The notes under the pieces were generated by a model, which worked only from the letters and a program-made list of their open reading frames with translations, made no database searches and was not told the origin of the DNA. From the IMG/VR virus record IMGVR_UViG_3300023180_000244, positions 1 to 31,547 of that record: a stretch of 31,547 nt of DNA; one strand, given 5' to 3'. Origin of the DNA: a virus. Both the position numbers and the translations under genes were made by a program. Of this stretch, positions 2,919 through 25,378 are shown piece after piece. Positions within the stretch are counted from its first letter, which is position 1. The number at the start of each line of letters is the position of its first letter.

Positions 2919-3857
2919 TTACATCTTAGATGCATGATACTGCATGATTAAATCAAATAGTGCCCAGTCGTTAGGATCACCCACAGCGATATATTCTTTA
3001 ATATCATTTAACGCATTAGCATTAGTAATGCCTTTAGCAGCTAAGCACGTACTATAAAATGCCTCGCATCTCATACGCTCTATAGCAGTCTCTAGATGTG
3101 CTAGTGTGTTATCTGCGTAAACAGTTTCTAGTAAGATGGTGTCTAACTCCTCAGCTAGTGCTATTTGTTTATCCTCACTTAAGGTGCCTACGTCTAAATC
3201 ATCTGCATTAGATGTAACGCTAATGAAGTAAGGCTTAGCCATCACTTGACGCTGTGCGGGTGCGGGTGCGGGTGCGGGTGGCACAGACGGCGGCGGGTTA
3301 CTTGGTACACGCTCACCCTCTACACTTTGAAATATGATTTTATCTTTCTCTGCGTCTGATAATTTATCATTCATTTCTGCGAGCTCATCAGGGCTATAAG
3401 TTTGGCCTATGATGTCTGAGTAAAAAGCACGTAGTAAAGCTGTTAAGCATCTCTTATGCAGCATATTTTTAGGCATAGTCTTCCATGCCCTATTATTCAA
3501 TAAGCCGCGTGCCTTAGCATCTGCAATAGTAAAAGACCATGTATGCTCTGGTATATCAAAGTCTAGTTCATCTCTACGCTTAGTGCCCAGTGTGCATACG
3601 TTATCATTAAGCTCAATAATGCGGATATAGCCACATACTTTAGTATTGTTATTATCACGATAGCCAAGTACGATACCCGCCATAGCATCTGCATTAAGTG
3701 CGGGCTTGCCACTAATTACATAAGTATGGGCTAGCGTGATAGCTACATTACCATTATAAAAGTGCCCAAAGGTAGCGAACGCCACTTTATTATCATGATA
3801 GTCTTTTTGATTTTTAGATAGTGCTGAGATTAAAGTCTCTTGATCTTGTGTAAACAT
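2919..3857 (-). CDS. Probable RecT-like single-strand annealing recombinase
   Basis: 312 residues. The region GKPALNADAMAGIVLGYR (about 51-68) and the region WKTMPKNMLHKRCLTALLRA (about 124-143), followed by a Y-S-P-D-E-L sequence near residue 157, resemble phage RecT-like annealing proteins in which a substrate-loop Gly-Lys-Pro segment is followed by a basic helix and a Y-T-P-E-E-type end. Such proteins bind single-stranded DNA and pair homologous strands during replication-linked recombination. After about residue 187 comes a Pro/Ala linker encoded by four TGCGGG repeats (minus-strand sense PAPAPAPA), then a helical C-terminal domain of about 110 residues of unknown role. The start at 3857 has a strong GGAG Shine-Dalgarno. 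It is the last gene of the leftward early operon that begins at 4978, fitting an early recombination function. The similarity is by motif recall only; no partner exonuclease is visible in the window. Confidence 0.55.
   Translation of the reverse strand: MFTQDQETLISALSKNQKDYHDNKVAFATFGHFYNGNVAITLAHTYVISGKPALNADAMAGIVLGYRDNNNTKVCGYIRIIELNDNVCTLGTKRRDELDFDIPEHTWSFTIADAKARGLLNNRAWKTMPKNMLHKRCLTALLRAFYSDIIGQTYSPDELAEMNDKLSDAEKDKIIFQSVEGERVPSNPPPSVPPAPAPAPAQRQVMAKPYFISVTSNADDLDVGTLSEDKQIALAEELDTILLETVYADNTLAHLETAIERMRCEAFYSTCLAAKGITNANALNDIKEYIAVGDPNDWALFDLIMQYHASKM
3255..3278. repeat. Short tandem repeat, 4 x TGCGGG
   Basis: Four perfect 6-base units encode the Pro-Ala linker of the RecT-like protein on the minus strand. 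The array is a possible length-variable site, with expansions or contractions keeping the reading frame and altering linker length. Confidence 0.8.
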
Positions 3858-12625: not shown

Positions 12626-13078
12626 ATGAATGATGAGATACTAAAACTATATGAAAACAAGTTTATGCTTAAGCAAGCTATGCGACTTACTAAGAACATA
12701 GATAAAGCACATGACCTGGTGCAAGACACACTAATTAAGATTATAGATAATGCTGATAAGTACACAGCTAGCAAGGGCACCCCCACGGGCTTTGTAACTG
12801 TAGTCATGCGGCGTATACATTTAAATAATGTGCGTCATGTTGGCATAGTTGCTAGAGCGTTAGAGACATATGCGGCTAGACAAGATGAGCCCATTCATGA
12901 TGCTACTCAGTATGTATATTGTAGGCAGCTCATAGCCCGCAGTAAATATAAAGAGATACTTAAGTTTAAAGCTTTAGGATATACCGCCCAAGATATAAGT
13001 AAAATTATAGGCATGAATCATAATACTATATTCTCACATACTAGAGTGATGCGTGAAGATCTGGCTAACTTAGGATAA
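12626..13078 (+). CDS. ECF-like RNA polymerase sigma factor
   Basis: 150 residues, typical for an ECF sigma. Region 2 occupies about 13-72 (KNIDKAHDLVQDTLIKIIDNADKY, then GFVTVVMRRIHLNNVR), with the A-x-D-L-V-Q-D-T core-binding/-10 helix pattern. Region 4 occupies about 104-147 (KYKEILKFKALGYTAQDISKIIGMNHNTIFSHTRVMREDL), a helix-turn-helix for -35 recognition. There is no region 1 or 3. It likely redirects host polymerase to phage promoters; its position before the head genes and just upstream of a terminator points to late transcription, which is inference. It is 1 base after the methyltransferase stop and has no strong Shine-Dalgarno. I could not see a repeated phage promoter for it. Confidence 0.75.
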   Translation: MNDEILKLYENKFMLKQAMRLTKNIDKAHDLVQDTLIKIIDNADKYTASKGTPTGFVTVVMRRIHLNNVRHVGIVARALETYAARQDEPIHDATQYVYCRQLIARSKYKEILKFKALGYTAQDISKIIGMNHNTIFSHTRVMREDLANLG

Positions 13079-13405: not shown

Positions 13406-14809
13406 ATGAATAATAGAAATACTAAACACTTAAAAGCACGCTATCCAAATTTTAGAACCTACGGAATCACGGGCACACAGCTAAGTGGCGGCAGTATTTC
13501 AGGCTATGAGAATAATACACGGTTAACGGGGCTTAACTGGGTTAATGAAGCTGAGGAGATGCTTAGGACTGACCCCGTAGTTAGAAGATCATGGCACATG
13601 TTACGTCAGACTTTACTAAGTGCCACATGGCGTTTTGAGCCTGGCATAGAACATGACCCCATGGCAGAGGAGCTAGCCCGCTACGCTAATGAGGCGTGGG
13701 GCTTTGATGGCTACGCGGGCCAAATGTCTATGTCATGGGAGGAGCAATTAGCTTATTTATTTGAATATGTACCACTAGGCTATAGATATGCTGAGGAAGT
13801 TTATAAAGTGGGGCTTGATAGTGAGGGCCGTACAAAGATATGGCTAGACTATTATGCGGACCGTGAACCCTCAGCACATAACGAGTGGCTTAGTAGAGAT
13901 GGGCAGCATTTAGACGGGGTGCTTCAAAATACGGTAGGCATCACTAAGATACCTAAGCCCATACCAGCTAATAAGCTACTACTTCTCACGCTTAATAAGA
14001 CGGGCTCTAATTTTGAGGGCGTAGGAATGTTACGCCCTGTATGGTGGTGGTGGCGTACTAAGCAACGTGTAAGTAATATGATGTGCGTGGGCTTAGATAG
14101 ATGGGCTATCCCTACACCCAAAGTAACTGTAGATAGATCAGTAGCAGAGCTACAAGGGCTTAATGATTCTGATATAGACGCCATGGTAAATGATGCGGAG
14201 GCACAGGCTCAAGCATTCTTAGCCGCTGAGCAAGCATATTTAATAGAGAATGCCGCCGTTAAGTTTGATAGCTATAGCACTACCCCTTATCTATATTCTC
14301 AGGGCCCGCTAGATATTATTAAAGAGTGTGACAATCAAATTAGTCAAGCATTCTTAGCACAGTTTGCTAACCTAGGTATAACAGATACAGGCTCACGCTC
14401 AGTGGGTGAAGTTCACTTATCCATGTTTAGACGTGCCGCTATTAACTTATGTGACATAGTAGCTAGTAGAGTAAGTGGCGTAGATAGAAGCGGGGCGGGC
14501 ACCATAGGCCGCTTGATTAAGTTTAACTATGGTGCGGTAGAAGCTAGCAAGTTACCCCGCTTAGTGCACACGGGGCTAGATACAGATGATTTGGCAGAGT
14601 CCTTGGGAATGTTAGGGCCGTTAGTTCAATATGGATTATTAACACCAGATGACGAATTAGAGCGGGCTATACGTGAAAGATTAGGGGCGGGTGACTTGCC
14701 AGAGGATGCCCAAAGATCAGCACTAGAGAGAACTGCCACAGCTAACGCCACAGGCGGGGGGGCGGCTTTACTCGCTGAGCAGCTTATTAGGAGGCGGCGT
14801 AATGGTTAA
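13406..14809 (+). CDS. Portal protein (DUF935/Mu gp29-like)
   Basis: 467 residues. The region around residues 45-80 (AEEMLRTDPVVRRSWHMLRQTLLSATWRFEPG) matches the N-terminus of Mu-type and related portals. The region about 300-350 (ISQAFLAQFANLGITDTGSRSVGEVHLSMF) matches the conserved stem/wing signature containing G-S-R-S-x-x-E-x-H. The portal is the dodecameric ring at the head vertex through which terminase pumps DNA and to which the tail attaches. Start at 13406 is preceded by AAGGG, partly hidden in a possible hairpin. It overlaps the next gene by 8 bases. The C-terminus is rich in Ala/Arg and Gly. No frameshift or truncation is seen. Confidence 0.85.
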   Translation: MNNRNTKHLKARYPNFRTYGITGTQLSGGSISGYENNTRLTGLNWVNEAEEMLRTDPVVRRSWHMLRQTLLSATWRFEPGIEHDPMAEELARYANEAWGFDGYAGQMSMSWEEQLAYLFEYVPLGYRYAEEVYKVGLDSEGRTKIWLDYYADREPSAHNEWLSRDGQHLDGVLQNTVGITKIPKPIPANKLLLLTLNKTGSNFEGVGMLRPVWWWWRTKQRVSNMMCVGLDRWAIPTPKVTVDRSVAELQGLNDSDIDAMVNDAEAQAQAFLAAEQAYLIENAAVKFDSYSTTPYLYSQGPLDIIKECDNQISQAFLAQFANLGITDTGSRSVGEVHLSMFRRAAINLCDIVASRVSGVDRSGAGTIGRLIKFNYGAVEASKLPRLVHTGLDTDDLAESLGMLGPLVQYGLLTPDDELERAIRERLGAGDLPEDAQRSALERTATANATGGGAALLAEQLIRRRRNG

Positions 14810-16760
14810 GCGTACACAGGCACAGACGCCCGCACCGCCTAAAGATAGAATTAAGGGCAGCACTAAAAACCCAGAGGGTAGTGCTAGTGGCTCACGTGGT
14901 GATATTAAAATATCAGAATCCACAGAGAAAGCCTTGGTTAATCTACGCAATAAGCATAACGATAAGTATAAGTCACCTAAAAAGCGTGTAGACATGGGCA
15001 AGCTTAAGGCAGTCTATAGACGTGGGGCGGGGGCTTATAGTGTATCTCATAGGCCTAATGTTACAAGCCGCGAGCAGTGGGCACTAGCCCGCGTTAAAGC
15101 ATTCCTAAAACTTGTGGGCACAGGTGAGAGAAAAAAAGCCTATACAGGTGATTTAGATTTATTACCCGCTGGCCATCCTCAAAAGTCAGACGCTAAGACA
15201 GAGGCCACGGCATTAGCTATGCCTCAAAAGTATTCACATATAAACTTCACCCCTCCCAAGGGGGCACAAGAGGCGGCGGCTAGGGCTCTAAAGAAAAGAG
15301 CAGAAAAGCCCCCCTCTCAGCGTGGCATGACCTCAGTAGGCTTAGCACGTGCCCGTGATCTAGCTAACGGCCGTGAGCTATCCCCAAATACAGTGCGTAG
15401 AATGCTTGCATACTTTACCCGCCATGAGGTGGATAAACAAGGTAGCACTTGGGATGAGTACGGCAAGGGCCGCCAGGCGTGGGATGGCTGGGGCGGTGAT
15501 GCGGGCTATTCTTTTGCTAAGAAAGTAGTTAAACAAATGAACGCAGCGGATAATAAAACGCAATCCCTTAGAGCGTATGGTGAGGCTATTCTTTTAAGTG
15601 ATAGCTCATCTTATGACGTGCCAGAGGGACTAACAGTAGGCAAGCCATTTAAGACATTATCACTGGGTCAAGTATCAAGCAGGCTCAGTGGTGACAAAGT
15701 AGGCAAGCCCATAGATCAAGATTTACTAACAGAGCTAGTGCGGGTATTCAATGAGCATAAAGCAGAGTCACCCGTGATTATTGACTGGCAGCATGCTACT
15801 AGCCCATTTCAAGGGGGCACACCCGCCCCGCCCGAAAGTGGGAACGCACTAGGCATGATAGTAGATTTAGAAATTAAAGAAGATGGCCTTTATGCTGTGC
15901 CCGCTTACAATGAGCGGGGCTTAGAGGTTGTTAAAAATGCGGGCGGAGTCTTGTGGTCAAGCCCTGAGTATATCCACGGCGACATATTCAGTAGGGGAGA
16001 TGGCAGCAAGCTAGGTGAGGCCCAGCTTTTAGCTATCACGCTCACACCCCGCCCCGCACAGTCACATAACACTATTGATCGTATTACATTAAGTGAGGAG
16101 CTAAATATGGATGATCAAGTAAAAGAGCTCATGGCTAAACTAGAGGCTAAGGATGCCCTAGTTAAGCAACTTGAAGCACAGCTCGCAGATATGAAAGCTG
16201 AGAATGAATCTAAGCTTATGGCTGAGGATGAGAAAAAAGAAGAGCTTAAAGAGCATTATGATGATGATAAGTCTAAGATGGCTGAGCATGATGATAATGA
16301 GAAAAAATCAGAGGATGAGAATGAGGATGAGGACAAAGTTAAAAAAATGTCTGAATCATTCAATACATCCAATGTAGCTCTACTTAATGAAGTGCAAGCA
16401 CTTAAAGAGCAGCTTAACACTGTAGTTAAAGAGAATAACGCTATTAAGTGTGATAAAGCGGTTAATCAACTTCTTAGTGAGGGCAAGATTACACCCGCTG
16501 AGCGTAAGTTTGCTGTAGATGCGTGGCACATGAAAGAACTACAACCCACATTTTGGCAGATGTTTAGCGAACGCCCCAGCGGTCAAGCTGTACCCCTACA
16601 AGAAGTGGGCCACGGTGCAAGCGGTCAAGAGATCTCTAAAGCTACTTTAAGTGAGAAGATCAAGACTTTAGCTACTGAGAAACAAATCACATTTAGTGAA
16701 GCTTTAAACATTGTGCGTGATCAAGATCCCGTATCTTATCGCAAAGCTTATGGAGTTTAA
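14802..16760 (+). CDS. Head maturation protease with extra N-terminal domain and C-terminal scaffold (Mu gpI/Z-like)
   Basis: 652 residues; start has AGGAGG spaced 8 bases. Residues about 60-130 (KLKAVYRRGAGAYSVSHRPNVTSREQWALARVKAF) and 170-240 (RGMTSVGLARARDLANGRELSPNTVRRMLAYFTRHE, then AWDGWGGDAGYSF) are phage-specific modules of unknown role found beside head proteases. The protease part spans about 255-430; candidate active residues lie in DWQHATSP (H331) and WSSPEYI (S386/S387). From about 436 the chain becomes an acidic coiled coil (EDEKKEELKEHYDDDKSKM) and then a small C-terminal helical domain, the scaffold. Protease cleaves scaffold and coat proteins during head maturation. An internal start at 16107 would give the scaffold alone. 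Confidence 0.8.
   Translation: MVKRTQAQTPAPPKDRIKGSTKNPEGSASGSRGDIKISESTEKALVNLRNKHNDKYKSPKKRVDMGKLKAVYRRGAGAYSVSHRPNVTSREQWALARVKAFLKLVGTGERKKAYTGDLDLLPAGHPQKSDAKTEATALAMPQKYSHINFTPPKGAQEAAARALKKRAEKPPSQRGMTSVGLARARDLANGRELSPNTVRRMLAYFTRHEVDKQGSTWDEYGKGRQAWDGWGGDAGYSFAKKVVKQMNAADNKTQSLRAYGEAILLSDSSSYDVPEGLTVGKPFKTLSLGQVSSRLSGDKVGKPIDQDLLTELVRVFNEHKAESPVIIDWQHATSPFQGGTPAPPESGNALGMIVDLEIKEDGLYAVPAYNERGLEVVKNAGGVLWSSPEYIHGDIFSRGDGSKLGEAQLLAITLTPRPAQSHNTIDRITLSEELNMDDQVKELMAKLEAKDALVKQLEAQLADMKAENESKLMAEDEKKEELKEHYDDDKSKMAEHDDNEKKSEDENEDEDKVKKMSESFNTSNVALLNEVQALKEQLNTVVKENNAIKCDKAVNQLLSEGKITPAERKFAVDAWHMKELQPTFWQMFSERPSGQAVPLQEVGHGASGQEISKATLSEKIKTLATEKQITFSEALNIVRDQDPVSYRKAYGV
16107..16760 (+). 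CDS. Nested scaffold protein from an internal start in the protease gene
   Basis: 217 residues, in frame with the protease gene. The ATG at 16107 is preceded by GAGGAG (16095-16100) with a 6-base spacer, among the best ribosome sites in the window and strange inside a coding region unless used. The product starts with MDDQVKELMAKLEAK, a coiled coil, continues into a very acidic stretch and ends in a C-terminal domain that in scaffolds binds coat protein. Lambda (C/Nu3) and Mu (I/Z) make scaffold from nested starts in the protease gene, giving excess scaffold over protease. The decoration and coat genes follow at once. The nested start is inference from sequence alone. Confidence 0.7.
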   Translation: MDDQVKELMAKLEAKDALVKQLEAQLADMKAENESKLMAEDEKKEELKEHYDDDKSKMAEHDDNEKKSEDENEDEDKVKKMSESFNTSNVALLNEVQALKEQLNTVVKENNAIKCDKAVNQLLSEGKITPAERKFAVDAWHMKELQPTFWQMFSERPSGQAVPLQEVGHGASGQEISKATLSEKIKTLATEKQITFSEALNIVRDQDPVSYRKAYGV

Positions 16761-21057: not shown

Positions 21058-22356
21058 ATGAGCGTTACACATAGAACACTGGGCGTAGCTCAAGAGTCAA
21101 GCTTTGGCTCACTATCTGCTACTACTAACTTACCCGACAATAGCGGATACACTTATATATCTATTCCATGTGAGATGGACCCCATTTTAATTTATGGTGA
21201 GCCTGTGGCTAGTGAGCGTAATGATGCTAGAGACGGTAATTACTTTAATCAACCTGAGCCAGACACCGTATGGAGTGGGGGCAATAGAGTACGCCGCCGC
21301 ACGGGTCAAGTACAGCTAAGAGTAGACTTAACTACTATAGGCACAGCGGCTAACACATACGATGCTAACTATCTAGGCTATCTTTTAAACGGTGGCTTTT
21401 TAAATAGAACTAGCGGCATTACAGAAGCCACAGTGGCAACTATTACAGATACTAATAGCTTCACGGTAGCAAGCGGGGGCCCTACAGCTAGTGACGTGGG
21501 TACACTCATTAGCACTATTCTCAATGGTAAAGTAGAATACTCAGCTATTACAGATGATAGTGATGCATCTAGTGATATTACAGTTAGCCCCGCCTTTAGC
21601 TCTGGCTTTAGCGGTACTCCTGTGATTAGAGGCACTCAGACATATTACCCTGGTAGCCGCACATTTACGGGCACATATACTAACTCACTCACCTTTAGAG
21701 TAGATGGCGTTAACTTTAGAAGCTATGCCTATGGATGCGTTTTAGAGTCCTTAGCTATTAGCTTAGATAATGGGCGACTTATGGGTGACTTCACCTATCA
21801 AGCGGCACTTATACAAGATGATCATGGTAGCGCGGTAGGTCCTATTGAGCCACTCTATAACACAGGTGCCCCGCCATTCTTTAGAAATAGCTACGTAGTA
21901 GTTTCAGACGCCGCCCCCTCATCTCGTGTAAATGCTAGCACAGGTGATAAGCTAGGGCGTATTGAGTTAGACTGTGAAGATTTTAGTTTAACTGTGACTA
22001 ATACATTAACACCACTAGGCACTAGTGAGAGTATTCTAGCTATGTCCAACATGGACATTAGCGGGGTAGATGTAGAATTAACGCTCACGCTATCCACTGT
22101 TAATACTACTATTGCTAATGATTATTTCAACAAAACACTACGTCAAGTGTTAATAGGTACAGGCCCTAGTGCAGATGGGGAGGGGTGTGCTATCATGTTA
22201 CCCGCCGCTATGCTTACTAATGATCCTAGTGCCTATGATGTGAGTGGTAACGATATTGTTAGACAAACACTTACATATAAACAAGCACGTTACGCGGGTG
22301 ACGTATCCGAGGTTAACGCTGCTAACTCACCCTTTAGATTAGCGTTAGGTATCTAG
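21058..22356 (+). CDS. Major tail (tube) protein, probable
   Basis: 432 residues, preceded by GGAGG with ideal spacing, a sign of strong expression. The chain is beta-rich and Thr/Ser/Gly heavy (YANYLGYLLNGGFLN-type segments and a TDTNSFTVASGGPTAS repeat), ending in DVSEVNAANSPFRLALGI. A beginning with GVAQESSFGS resembles tail-tube proteins of siphophages, and it directly precedes the frameshifted chaperone gene and tape measure. At 432 residues it is longer than a minimal tube subunit of about 200, suggesting an added surface domain (about 130-260). A conserved motif could not be confirmed. Confidence 0.65.
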   Translation: MSVTHRTLGVAQESSFGSLSATTNLPDNSGYTYISIPCEMDPILIYGEPVASERNDARDGNYFNQPEPDTVWSGGNRVRRRTGQVQLRVDLTTIGTAANTYDANYLGYLLNGGFLNRTSGITEATVATITDTNSFTVASGGPTASDVGTLISTILNGKVEYSAITDDSDASSDITVSPAFSSGFSGTPVIRGTQTYYPGSRTFTGTYTNSLTFRVDGVNFRSYAYGCVLESLAISLDNGRLMGDFTYQAALIQDDHGSAVGPIEPLYNTGAPPFFRNSYVVVSDAAPSSRVNASTGDKLGRIELDCEDFSLTVTNTLTPLGTSESILAMSNMDISGVDVELTLTLSTVNTTIANDYFNKTLRQVLIGTGPSADGEGCAIMLPAAMLTNDPSAYDVSGNDIVRQTLTYKQARYAGDVSEVNAANSPFRLALGI

Positions 22357-22357
22357 T

Positions 22358-22867
22358 ATGGCTTTGCACTTTTCCACATCTACAAATGATCTTTTTAAAA
22401 TAGTTGTCTCGTGTGATCCCGCCGTTAACTTTACAGATGAAAGTAAAGCGGCTTACTTTAACACGGGTGACTTATCACTATTAGATGTGGGTGAAGATGC
22501 AACAATCATAACATTAAAGCCCCTAGGGCCACAGGATAGAGAACGGGCAGAGATTAGGGCGGGGGCTTTTACTCGTAGCGAATTAGGCAAGCTCCTATGG
22601 ATAGAGGCACCCAATGACAGAGTAGAGCATGCTAGATGGCATCATGAGTTAACAGAGGATGAGCGTGAGGCACTAGCTAGCTATGAGTCTTACATATCTA
22701 AATCTTATGTAGAGTATGTGAGAGAAGCACTTGTTAGCATAAATGATGAGCCCGCCACTATTGACATGATCAATAGCATAAGGCCAGAGCATATGCGTAT
22801 AACTACTATCACAGAAATAGTGCTCCACTTACAACGGGTGAGTTTACTAGGTGATGTGGGAAAATAG
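22358..22867 (+). CDS. Tail assembly chaperone, short form (gpG-like)
   Basis: 169 residues, reading frame 0. The product is helical and acidic, with no membrane segment. It lies between the tail tube and tape-measure genes, the place of the tail assembly chaperone in almost all siphophages. The last sense codons lie within a canonical slippery heptamer GGGAAAA followed at once by a TAG stop, giving both this form and a longer -1 frameshift product. The chaperone wraps the tape measure during tail assembly and is absent from mature virions. Identity is mainly from position and the frameshift site. Confidence 0.75.
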   Translation: MALHFSTSTNDLFKIVVSCDPAVNFTDESKAAYFNTGDLSLLDVGEDATIITLKPLGPQDRERAEIRAGAFTRSELGKLLWIEAPNDRVEHARWHHELTEDEREALASYESYISKSYVEYVREALVSINDEPATIDMINSIRPEHMRITTITEIVLHLQRVSLLGDVGK

Positions 22868-23289
22868 CACTAGCCTCTGCCATATGGATACCGTTTAGTA
22901 GCGGTAGGGGCTGGGATTGCTCGCAGTGTACAAATAACAGAGGGTTAAGACGCTTGCGGGGTAACTGCGGGGGCACGTTTAAAAAAGGATTGCCACAGGC
23001 GTTAGAGGATGAGCAAGGGCTATACATGCCAGGCTATAGAATAGCCCCTAACAGTGGTGAGGCTTATAGTGATCTTAAAATTAGATCATGCCCCATAAGT
23101 AATATGAATAGACTAGCTCTCATAGTTAACAATTATTCTAAAATTAAAAACAAGCTCTTATCGTTTAGCGAACTATACCCGCATCCCACGTGTGCTATAG
23201 TTGAAAGCATAGAAATTTTAGACTATAATCATGAGCAGATGTTAAATAGAAAGCATAAGCAAGCTCTAGAGGAGGCTAATCATGGCTAA
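22358..23289 (+). CDS. Tail assembly chaperone, -1 frameshift fusion (gpGT-like)
   Basis: If ribosomes slip one base back at 22858-22864, the protein continues in the -1 frame from base 22864 to the TGA at 23287-23289, giving about 310 residues. The extension (141 residues) has no own start: its first Met is 23026, the only upstream initiator is a TTG at 22954 without a Shine-Dalgarno, and the frame is open from the slip site on. It includes a zinc-ribbon-like cluster, W-D-C-S-Q-C followed by R-G-N-C-G-G, and a later cysteine, which resembles T-domains of other chaperones. Lambda G/GT is the known precedent. Its stop overlaps the tape-measure start by 8 bases. Confidence 0.8.
22858..22912 (+). 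promoter_or_regulatory. Programmed -1 frameshift signal: slippery site plus stem-loops
   Basis: Slippery heptamer GGGAAAA at 22858-22864 in the right phase (G GGA AAA). A 7-base spacer follows, then stem AGCCTC (22872-22877)/GGGGCT (22907-22912), enclosing an inner stem TACCG (22889-22893)/CGGTA (22902-22906). The 0-frame stop TAG starts at 22865. All spacing rules of such signals are met. Confidence 0.85.
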
Positions 23290-25378
23290 AGGTGGCACTA
23301 TAGAAATAGAGGTAGAGCTTCAGGGCACACAAGACATAAAAGAGGGCTTAGGCTCTATAGGCACAGCGGGTAAAGCATTAGCAGCTAATATGGGCGTAGC
23401 TAATGAAAAGCTAGGCGAGGGGTTAGAGAGTGTGGGGGAGTCAGTTTTTAGCGTAGTAGATAGTTTTTCAGAATTAAAAAAAGGTATAAGTGCGGCATCT
23501 GGTGCGGGCATTAGTGGGTTTACAGCTTTAATAGGCCCTATCGGTATGGTAGTTACTGCGGGCTTTACACTATACGAAACATTTAAACTAATTAGCGGGG
23601 CAGCACAGGAAGCGGAAAAAGATGAGGTGGCCATGGCGGCGGCGGCTTCTGACTTACAAAGCAAGCTAGAGTCACTAAATGAAAAGGGGGTAATCCCATC
23701 TCAGCAAGAGATGGAAAAATTTACCATGGCCACTATAGAGGCTCAGTTTGCTAAAGAGAAATTGCAGGGCAGGCATGAGAAACTTACTAAGGTGGTTAGA
23801 AAGTCTTATCAAGCTACTCAAGATTTAAGAGAGGCTACTGAGAATTTAGTAGAGACAGAAAAAGAGGGCTTAGGTATAGAGCTCATTTTAGACGCTGCGG
23901 CACGTCAGTATAATAATGCTCTAGAGGCACAAAAGGAAGCTAAGGAAGCCCTAAGACTAGAAATAAAAAAGTACTTGGGTGAGCAAAAGGCACTAGCGGC
24001 CGCTATTAAAGAGGGGGCTAAACAAGAGAAAGAACTAGAGGAACAATCTGCGGAATCATTAAAAGCTAAAAATAAGGAGCTTATAGGCAAGCAAAAGGCT
24101 TTAAAATTGATGCAAGCAGAGACTAATCTATCTGAGAATCAATTTAAAATTAAAAAAGTAGAGATTGAGCAAGCGGCCCAGCTAGCACTTTTAAAAGTAG
24201 AAGAGAATGAAGAAAATCAAAAGTTTTTAGTGGGTCAAAAAAAAGCACTAGACGCTAGCATAAAGACATTTAATCAAGAAAGTCTATTAAGAAAAAAAGC
24301 CGCTAAAGATCAGGATAACATAAGAAAAGAGATTAAAAAGAAACGAGATCAAGAGGCCGCCCAGCTTAAAGCGGCTAGGGATAGGGCTAAGCGTGATGCT
24401 GAGATATTAGCTAAAACTGAGGAGGCGGCGGCACTGCGGGTGCTTGCTGAGAAGTCACGCATCACACAGCTAGAAATAGAGACACAAGAGGATAGCACAC
24501 AAAAAGAAATTAACCTCGCTACCCATAGGTATGTAACACAGTTACAACTTGCTAAAGATAATCTTAATCAACAAAAGATAGCTATCTTACAATTTAATGC
24601 AGAGCTTAAACGCATACGAGATAAAGAGACACAAGAAGAGATAGCGAGAGTAAAACAAGCTCAAGCACTCAAGATGGATGCGGCTAAGTTTGACGCTCAG
24701 CAAATAAAGAACGGTTTAAATCGTGAGCTAGAATTATTAAGATTGAATTATGAGGAGAAAGTAACGCAAGCGGAGGGCAATGAGGCACAGATAACAGAGC
24801 TCACTAGGCAGTATGGTATAGATAGACAAAAGCTTATGAGCTCACAAGCTGAGCATATGAAAGCTGTATTTAGTGACATGTTCGTTAGCTTAGGGCGGGG
24901 CATGGCTGCGGCGGCTTATAATGCTATCTTTTTTAGTGACTCATTAAAGGAAGCCACTGCTAATATCATCAGGGGCTTAGGTGAGCAAGCTGCGGTAGAA
25001 TCTTTAATGCAGACCGCTAAGGGGTTCGCTGCTTTAGCGAATCCGTTTACAGCTTTTCAAGCACCAGGCTTTTTTAAGTCTGCGGCTATCTTTGCGGGTG
25101 CCGCTACTATAGCGGGTGCCACATCTGCGGCTATGGGTGCGGGTGGCGGCGGTGGCGGTAGCATGGGCGGTGGCGGTGCATCTGTCATGGGTAGCCCTCA
25201 AACTGCACAGGCCCCACAGCGTGAGGAGGCTACTAGCTCAGCATTAACATTTAACATTAACTTTAGCGGGGCAGTTGTATACGATACACGCAAGGCGGCT
25301 GAGATGGCCCTAGCTGATAGGGTTACTAGAATAATGAACACTCAAAGACGCGGGGCCCCGCGTGCTAGGAGGGCTTAA
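23282..25378 (+). CDS. Tape measure protein
   Basis: 698 residues, starting 8 bases before the chaperone fusion stop. The N-terminus has GTIEIEVELQGTQDIKEGL, a typical tape-measure opening. A hydrophobic segment lies at about 75-106 (GISGFTALIGPIGMVVTAGFTLYETFKLI). A very long charged coiled coil runs about 110-520 (Glu/Lys/Ala/Gln heptads), then a second hydrophobic region about 560-620 (FAALANPFTAFQAPGFFKSA), then a Gly-rich linker (GGGGGGSMGGGG). The coiled coil sets tail length; by the common 1.5 A per residue rule a tail near 100 nm would follow, a rough estimate. The C-terminal tail is basic. The gene ends in a 16-bp GC palindrome next to the ribosome site of the next gene. Confidence 0.88.
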   Translation: MAKGGTIEIEVELQGTQDIKEGLGSIGTAGKALAANMGVANEKLGEGLESVGESVFSVVDSFSELKKGISAASGAGISGFTALIGPIGMVVTAGFTLYETFKLISGAAQEAEKDEVAMAAAASDLQSKLESLNEKGVIPSQQEMEKFTMATIEAQFAKEKLQGRHEKLTKVVRKSYQATQDLREATENLVETEKEGLGIELILDAAARQYNNALEAQKEAKEALRLEIKKYLGEQKALAAAIKEGAKQEKELEEQSAESLKAKNKELIGKQKALKLMQAETNLSENQFKIKKVEIEQAAQLALLKVEENEENQKFLVGQKKALDASIKTFNQESLLRKKAAKDQDNIRKEIKKKRDQEAAQLKAARDRAKRDAEILAKTEEAAALRVLAEKSRITQLEIETQEDSTQKEINLATHRYVTQLQLAKDNLNQQKIAILQFNAELKRIRDKETQEEIARVKQAQALKMDAAKFDAQQIKNGLNRELELLRLNYEEKVTQAEGNEAQITELTRQYGIDRQKLMSSQAEHMKAVFSDMFVSLGRGMAAAAYNAIFFSDSLKEATANIIRGLGEQAAVESLMQTAKGFAALANPFTAFQAPGFFKSAAIFAGAATIAGATSAAMGAGGGGGGSMGGGGASVMGSPQTAQAPQREEATSSALTFNINFSGAVVYDTRKAAEMALADRVTRIMNTQRRGAPRARRA
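25348..25363. other. Perfect 16-bp GC-rich palindrome at the end of the tape-measure gene
   Basis: ACGCGGGGCCCCGCGT is its own reverse complement. It lies 3 bases before AGGAGG (25367-25372), the ribosome site of the next gene. It codes for R-R-G-A-P-R in the tape measure. Confidence 0.7.

Follow-up and report, generated by a model that had tools for sequence, protein, structure and literature searches.

A predicted -1 ribosomal frameshift site with an adjacent, selectively maintained stop codon in the tail chaperone genes of uncultivated tailed phages

The tail module of the virus record analysed here very probably contains a programmed -1 ribosomal frameshift like that of lambda G/GT, as predicted from the sequence of the window (the whole 31.5-kb stretch of DNA, 31,547 nucleotides, an IMG/VR virus record that carries a head and a tail module) and of its relatives. 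On these comparisons, the window belongs to a clade of uncultivated tailed phages that appear to be well-supported members of the lambda G/GT class, with one unusual trait: a 0-frame stop codon that directly adjoins the slippery heptamer and appears to be under selection. The -1 frameshift in tail chaperone genes is textbook knowledge for tailed phages; the addition made here is a large set of natural variants, in bacterial viruses, in which the stop is apparently held against the slip site by synonymous selection. The features of the region are as follows.

21058–22356, + strand: probable major tail protein gene, directly upstream of G (from position alone)
22358–22867, + strand: 0-frame ORF, putative tail assembly chaperone, short form (G-like), 169 aa (from predicted fold and gene position)
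22858–22864, + strand: slippery heptamer G_GGA_AAA (GGGAAAA in 73 of 76 loci; near-invariant codons)
22865–22867, + strand: 0-frame stop TAG adjoining the heptamer (synonymous choice of ATA)
22864–23289, + strand: -1-frame extension (T-like domain), 141 codons and a stop (invariant cysteines 19, 22, 35 and 76; AF2 model)
22870–22881, + strand: 5′ arm of a 12-bp stem (folding and covariation)
22903–22914, + strand: 3′ arm of the 12-bp stem (covariation in the window's register and in a second register of other relatives)
23282–25378, + strand: tape measure protein gene, 698 codons (phrog_1538, E = 5.9e-6)

G and the extension adjoin the tape measure gene on its 5′ side, both in the window and in relatives. 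The end of the extension overlaps the start of the tape measure gene by 8 nt in the window, and the same overlap, with the same gene order, is common in relatives. The tape measure protein of one relative (L012) also matches phrog_1538, tail length tape measure protein (E = 1.6e-6). The major tail candidate at 21058–22356 has no family match in the family profile search. Conservation and gene order support the -1 frameshift between a tail chaperone and an extension that an earlier note on this DNA had proposed.

Slip site, adjacent stop and downstream stem

The 169-codon 0-frame ORF (22358–22867) ends in GTG GGA AAA TAG. GGGAAAA, which occurs only once on the + strand of the 31.5-kb record, lies in the X_XXY_YYZ phase with the 0-frame TAG touching its 3′ end, in agreement with the phase and the neighbouring stop given in the earlier note. 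The -1 frame is open for 141 codons (22864 to 23286; stop at 23287–23289) and has no start of its own, again as the note had claimed: no ATG, GTG or TTG is present in the window between the upstream stop of this frame and the CxxC motif of the extension. Readthrough of the TAG would end one codon later (TAG CAC TAG) and the third frame shuts after 10–11 codons; with neither of these frames open for more than about a dozen codons, nothing useful would come of readthrough or of a +1 shift. In most loci the extension frame opens merely 6–9 nt upstream of the extension, which leaves no alternative route into it.

In IMG/VR, 74 loci were recovered that encode the extension, and L081 was added through its 0-frame protein. 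The window brings the set to 76 loci, among which 58 are distinct in the region of the site, and since the loci share kinship the counts that follow do not represent independent events. GGGAAAATAG is present in 72 of the 76 loci (54 of 58 distinct). GGGAAAA itself is found in 73 of the 76, 72 with the adjacent TAG and the remaining one being L065; at the three other loci, which are distant relatives (L074, L075 and L081), the heptamer is replaced, with the adjacent TAG and the frame relation kept. The adjacent stop, present in 57 of 58 distinct loci, is more widely conserved than the heptamer and is formed via four different -1-frame codons (ATA, GTA, CTA and TTA). L065, the only relative that lacks the adjacent stop, reads GGGAAAATCGCTTTAG (locus positions 2995–3010), with its -1-frame amino acids unchanged and its 0-frame stop two codons later, and constitutes a natural control for the role of stop adjacency. 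Besides family members, a scan of the collection for GGGAAAATAGCNNTNGC picked up unrelated chance matches, and none of these chance matches is flanked by long ORFs on both sides.

The loci with a replaced heptamer differ in kind. L074 and L075 carry A_AAA_AAC/T followed by TAG, with about ten A's directly before the TAG (around locus position 3000), and transcriptional slippage could replace ribosomal slippage there. L081 carries A_GCA_AAG and then TAG; only the lysine tRNA can re-pair at this site, and the -1 extension is kept. At a further locus, L078, the 0-frame is disrupted ∼20 nt upstream, probably by an indel introduced during sequencing or assembly.

Since the bases of the TAG fall within the first two codons of the -1 frame (ATA G..), synonymous alternatives provide a test of its retention. 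Where the -1 frame begins with isoleucine, this residue is encoded by ATA in 54 of 55 distinct loci, compared with ∼11.5 (∼21%) expected from the codon use of each locus; a naive probability for this excess is withheld because the loci are related. All 88 conserved degenerate codons across both ORFs served as a control with the same history. The dominant codon reaches at least 95% at only three of the 88, GGA, AAA and ATA, which together spell the slip site and the TAG, and accounts for 34–68% at the other conserved Ile and Gly codons of both ORFs. This codon pattern indicates that the TAG directly after the heptamer is maintained by selection on synonymous codons.

The 12-bp stem of the window (22870–22881 with 22903–22914) is extended by a 4-bp outer step (22866–22869/22918–22921), consistent with the two-step stem described earlier. 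The spacer of seven bases given with it was not recovered: the spacer is 5 nt long up to the 12-bp stem, and 8 nt long up to the core that relatives share. On its own, the window stem is unremarkable against dinucleotide shuffles (z = -1.37), and the stem is convincing only when relatives are included. In all 55 of 55 distinct loci the natural sequence folded better than synonymous versions of the extension, drawn from the codon usage of that locus, did on average (mean z = -2.0). The 5′ arm is located at a nearly fixed distance, and the 3′ arm mostly occupies one of three registers, three bases apart. One register group displays double-sided changes at nine of 12 pairs, with 88.9% of cells paired and a covariation score of 0.449 versus 0.184 in shuffles, none of 500 shuffles reaching the observed score. 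In the window's own register group 91.2% of cells pair, and three pairs have changed on both sides.

The sequence AGGTGAT (22849–22855, + strand), located immediately upstream of the slip site, is similar to the 3′ portion of a Shine–Dalgarno sequence. A Shine–Dalgarno-like stimulator, GGTGA(T/C), was considered as a family-wide element and rejected, as many loci carry it and others do not, and as it is barely above synonymous re-encodings (mean z = -0.53, 64% negative).

Predicted G protein and extension

The AlphaFold2 model of G has a pLDDT of 88.7. Its best VIA-align match is the HK97 tail assembly chaperone (2ob9; rmsd 3.1, 85 aligned, 8% identity) with a Z score of 6.0, a moderate value that is below the level safe by itself, and the next row has a Z score of 4.1. 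Weak Foldseek matches include several annotated phage tail assembly chaperones. Sequence searches of Pfam, PHROGs and the PDB gave no credible match to G. Cultured phages gave no DNA or protein match to G or T, and bacterial genomes no match to G. Synteny, frameshift anatomy and the moderate fold match together support the assignment of G as a putative tail assembly chaperone.

The best AF2 model of the extension (pLDDT 93.0, the five models ranging from 58 to 93) is mostly α-helical with short strands only. Neither a fold search of the PDB nor VIA-align identified a confident match to it, sequence searches of the PDB gave nothing credible, and family profile searches gave no family match. A search of Rfam also gave no match. 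The fold and structure search returned one short viral protein with 47% identity, and the bacterial genome search one short T piece in a Sphingomonadales MAG. Four cysteines (C19, C22, C35 and C76) are invariant among relatives (57 of 57 or 55 of 55) and plausibly form a metal or structural site. Of the cysteine motifs reported earlier, the CxxC is borne out; the second compact cluster is not, the conserved set being the four residues named above. The description of the extension as a zinc ribbon is likewise unsupported. Such a fold needs two CxxC-type knuckles on β-hairpins; the extension has one CxxC and two single invariant cysteines, its model is mostly helical, and it matched neither a PDB fold with confidence nor a known family. 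The family formed by G and T, which is missed by current libraries, is now available to annotators.

Known systems with related architecture

Slip-to-stop distances were read in the annotated phage records of lambda, HK97 and Gordonia phage Begonia. The window resembles lambda G/GT in its gene order (major tail protein, G, T in the -1 frame, tape measure), in its GGGAAAR-type heptamer, in the access to T via a -1 shift and in the overlap of T with the tape measure gene (PMC5009743). It differs in that the GGGAAAG of lambda lies 15 nt before the 0-frame stop, whereas the GGGAAAA of the window touches its stop; in addition, the G and T of the window have no sequence-family match, and its extension has four invariant cysteines. 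The HK97 proteins gp13 and gp13-14 are related to the present case through the fold match described above, and the HK97 record annotates a -1 frameshift product; in HK97, however, the 0-frame stop lies downstream of the GGGAAAA run without touching it, and the identity in the structural alignment is as low as stated above. Joined chaperone genes are also present in the actinobacteriophages of the SEA-PHAGES set, and Microbacterium phage Bush uses GGGAAAA (PMC11749239), but the mean slip-to-stop distance in this set is 26 nt (PMC10885494), compared with 0 in the window.

A 0-frame stop directly after the slip heptamer is found in BYDV, RCNMV and GRV (PMC4737148), and the stop likewise adjoins the heptamer in RSV and BYDV (PMC4373837). 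The polymerase sites of luteoviruses, dianthoviruses and umbraviruses and the site of Rous sarcoma virus share with the window the adjacent stop and a structure just downstream. They operate on eukaryotic ribosomes with other heptamers and structures, and the likeness is a geometric analogy, not homology. The effect of a nearby stop differs between systems. In pea enation mosaic virus (PEMV), a stop 3 nt downstream of the slip site stimulates frameshifting, which fell by 72% in vitro once a sense codon was put in place of the stop (PMC4737148), whereas a stop codon lowered frameshifting at the HIV slip site on bacterial ribosomes (PMC4373837). According to the earlier note, the short form should be the default by virtue of the adjacent stop. 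As adjacency is already known in plant and retroviral frameshift sites, this does not follow, and as the effect differs between systems, the argument is unsafe; in lambda the short form is the major product, at about 30:1 (PMC5009743), with the stop 15 nt away.

Proposed mechanism and alternatives

From the site, its phase, the reading frames, the gene order, the conservation, the synonymous constraint, the stem covariation and the predicted chaperone fold, we infer the following mechanism. Translation would mostly stay in the 0 frame and stop at the TAG, which yields the 169-aa short chaperone G. A minority of ribosomes, delayed at the stem, would slip back by one base on G_GGA_AAA, with tRNA-Gly and tRNA-Lys re-pairing on GGG AAA, and would continue in the -1 frame to yield a fusion of ∼310 aa that consists of G and the helical extension with its cysteines. 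If the roles are those of the lambda proteins, G would coat the tape measure protein and the extension would recruit the major tail protein. The adjacent TAG most likely either sets the balance between termination and slippage, the A site being occupied by the stop and the E and P sites by the two tRNAs, or trims the short form exactly.

Whether ribosomes slip to the -1 frame ahead of translocation, during it or afterwards is a matter of long debate. A natural site of the present kind in bacterial viruses, with its conserved neighbouring UAG, would together with L065 provide a test of competition between slippage and termination. An artificial stop placed after the HIV heptamer in bacteria argued for post-translocation slippage (work cited in PMC4373837). 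The strong form of this idea, in which slippage obligatorily follows translocation, the stop then occupying the A site and the tRNAs E and P, and competes with release factor 1, is in our view rather unlikely to hold for the present site. If it were true, the release-factor level would influence the ratio of G to GT and, through it, tail assembly.

A rival to the proposed role of the stop, although not to the frameshift itself, is that the TAG merely ends the short form cleanly and takes no part in slippage, the frameshift being otherwise of the ordinary lambda type. We give this reading serious weight, somewhat short of an even chance. Were the TAG absent, the next 0-frame stop would be a median of 27 codons away and the short form would acquire a long out-of-frame junk tail; L065 tolerates its stop two codons later, and in Rous sarcoma virus mutation of the adjacent stop left frameshifting unaltered (PMC4373837). 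On the other hand, any stop within the first few codons would then do, yet 57 of the 58 distinct loci place it at codon zero and reach this position through as many as four different -1-frame codons. Moreover, of the eight loci with a stop two codons further downstream, seven retain the first stop as well, which leans slightly towards a stop that tunes slippage via release-factor competition and away from avoidance of a junk tail.

The fusion itself could in principle be dispensed with if the extension were translated from its own internal start as an independent protein. Weak starts (TTG or GTG) do occur in the -1 frame of some loci, but the first of these in the window, TTG 22954, falls 3′ of the invariant CxxC, no -1-frame start is conserved among relatives, and few codons of either ORF are as constrained as those of the slip site; we consider two separate proteins highly improbable. 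Even less credence is given to a fusion made by transcriptional rather than ribosomal slippage. The A runs of L074 and L075 are of sufficient length for polymerase slippage, but the window and most other loci have AAAA only, and the conserved GGG, the codon phase and the covarying stem are consistent with slippage by the ribosome. A programmed -1 ribosomal frameshift is retained as the preferred explanation for the fusion.

Several genes upstream of the tail module could also be assigned. The 150-aa ORF at 12626–13078 (+ strand), located between a DNA methylase gene and the portal gene, contains a sigma-70 region 2 domain (PF04542, E = 5.2e-11), by which its predicted product is a phage-encoded sigma-factor-like protein. 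The portal gene (13406–14809, + strand) encodes a protein that matches a Mu family (PF06074, Portal_Mu, E = 8.1e-24), as does the protease/scaffold gene (14802–16760, + strand; PF10123, Mu-like_Pro, E = 2.9e-14). The best cultured relatives of the portal, at ∼25% identity, are in Gordonia and Arthrobacter phages.
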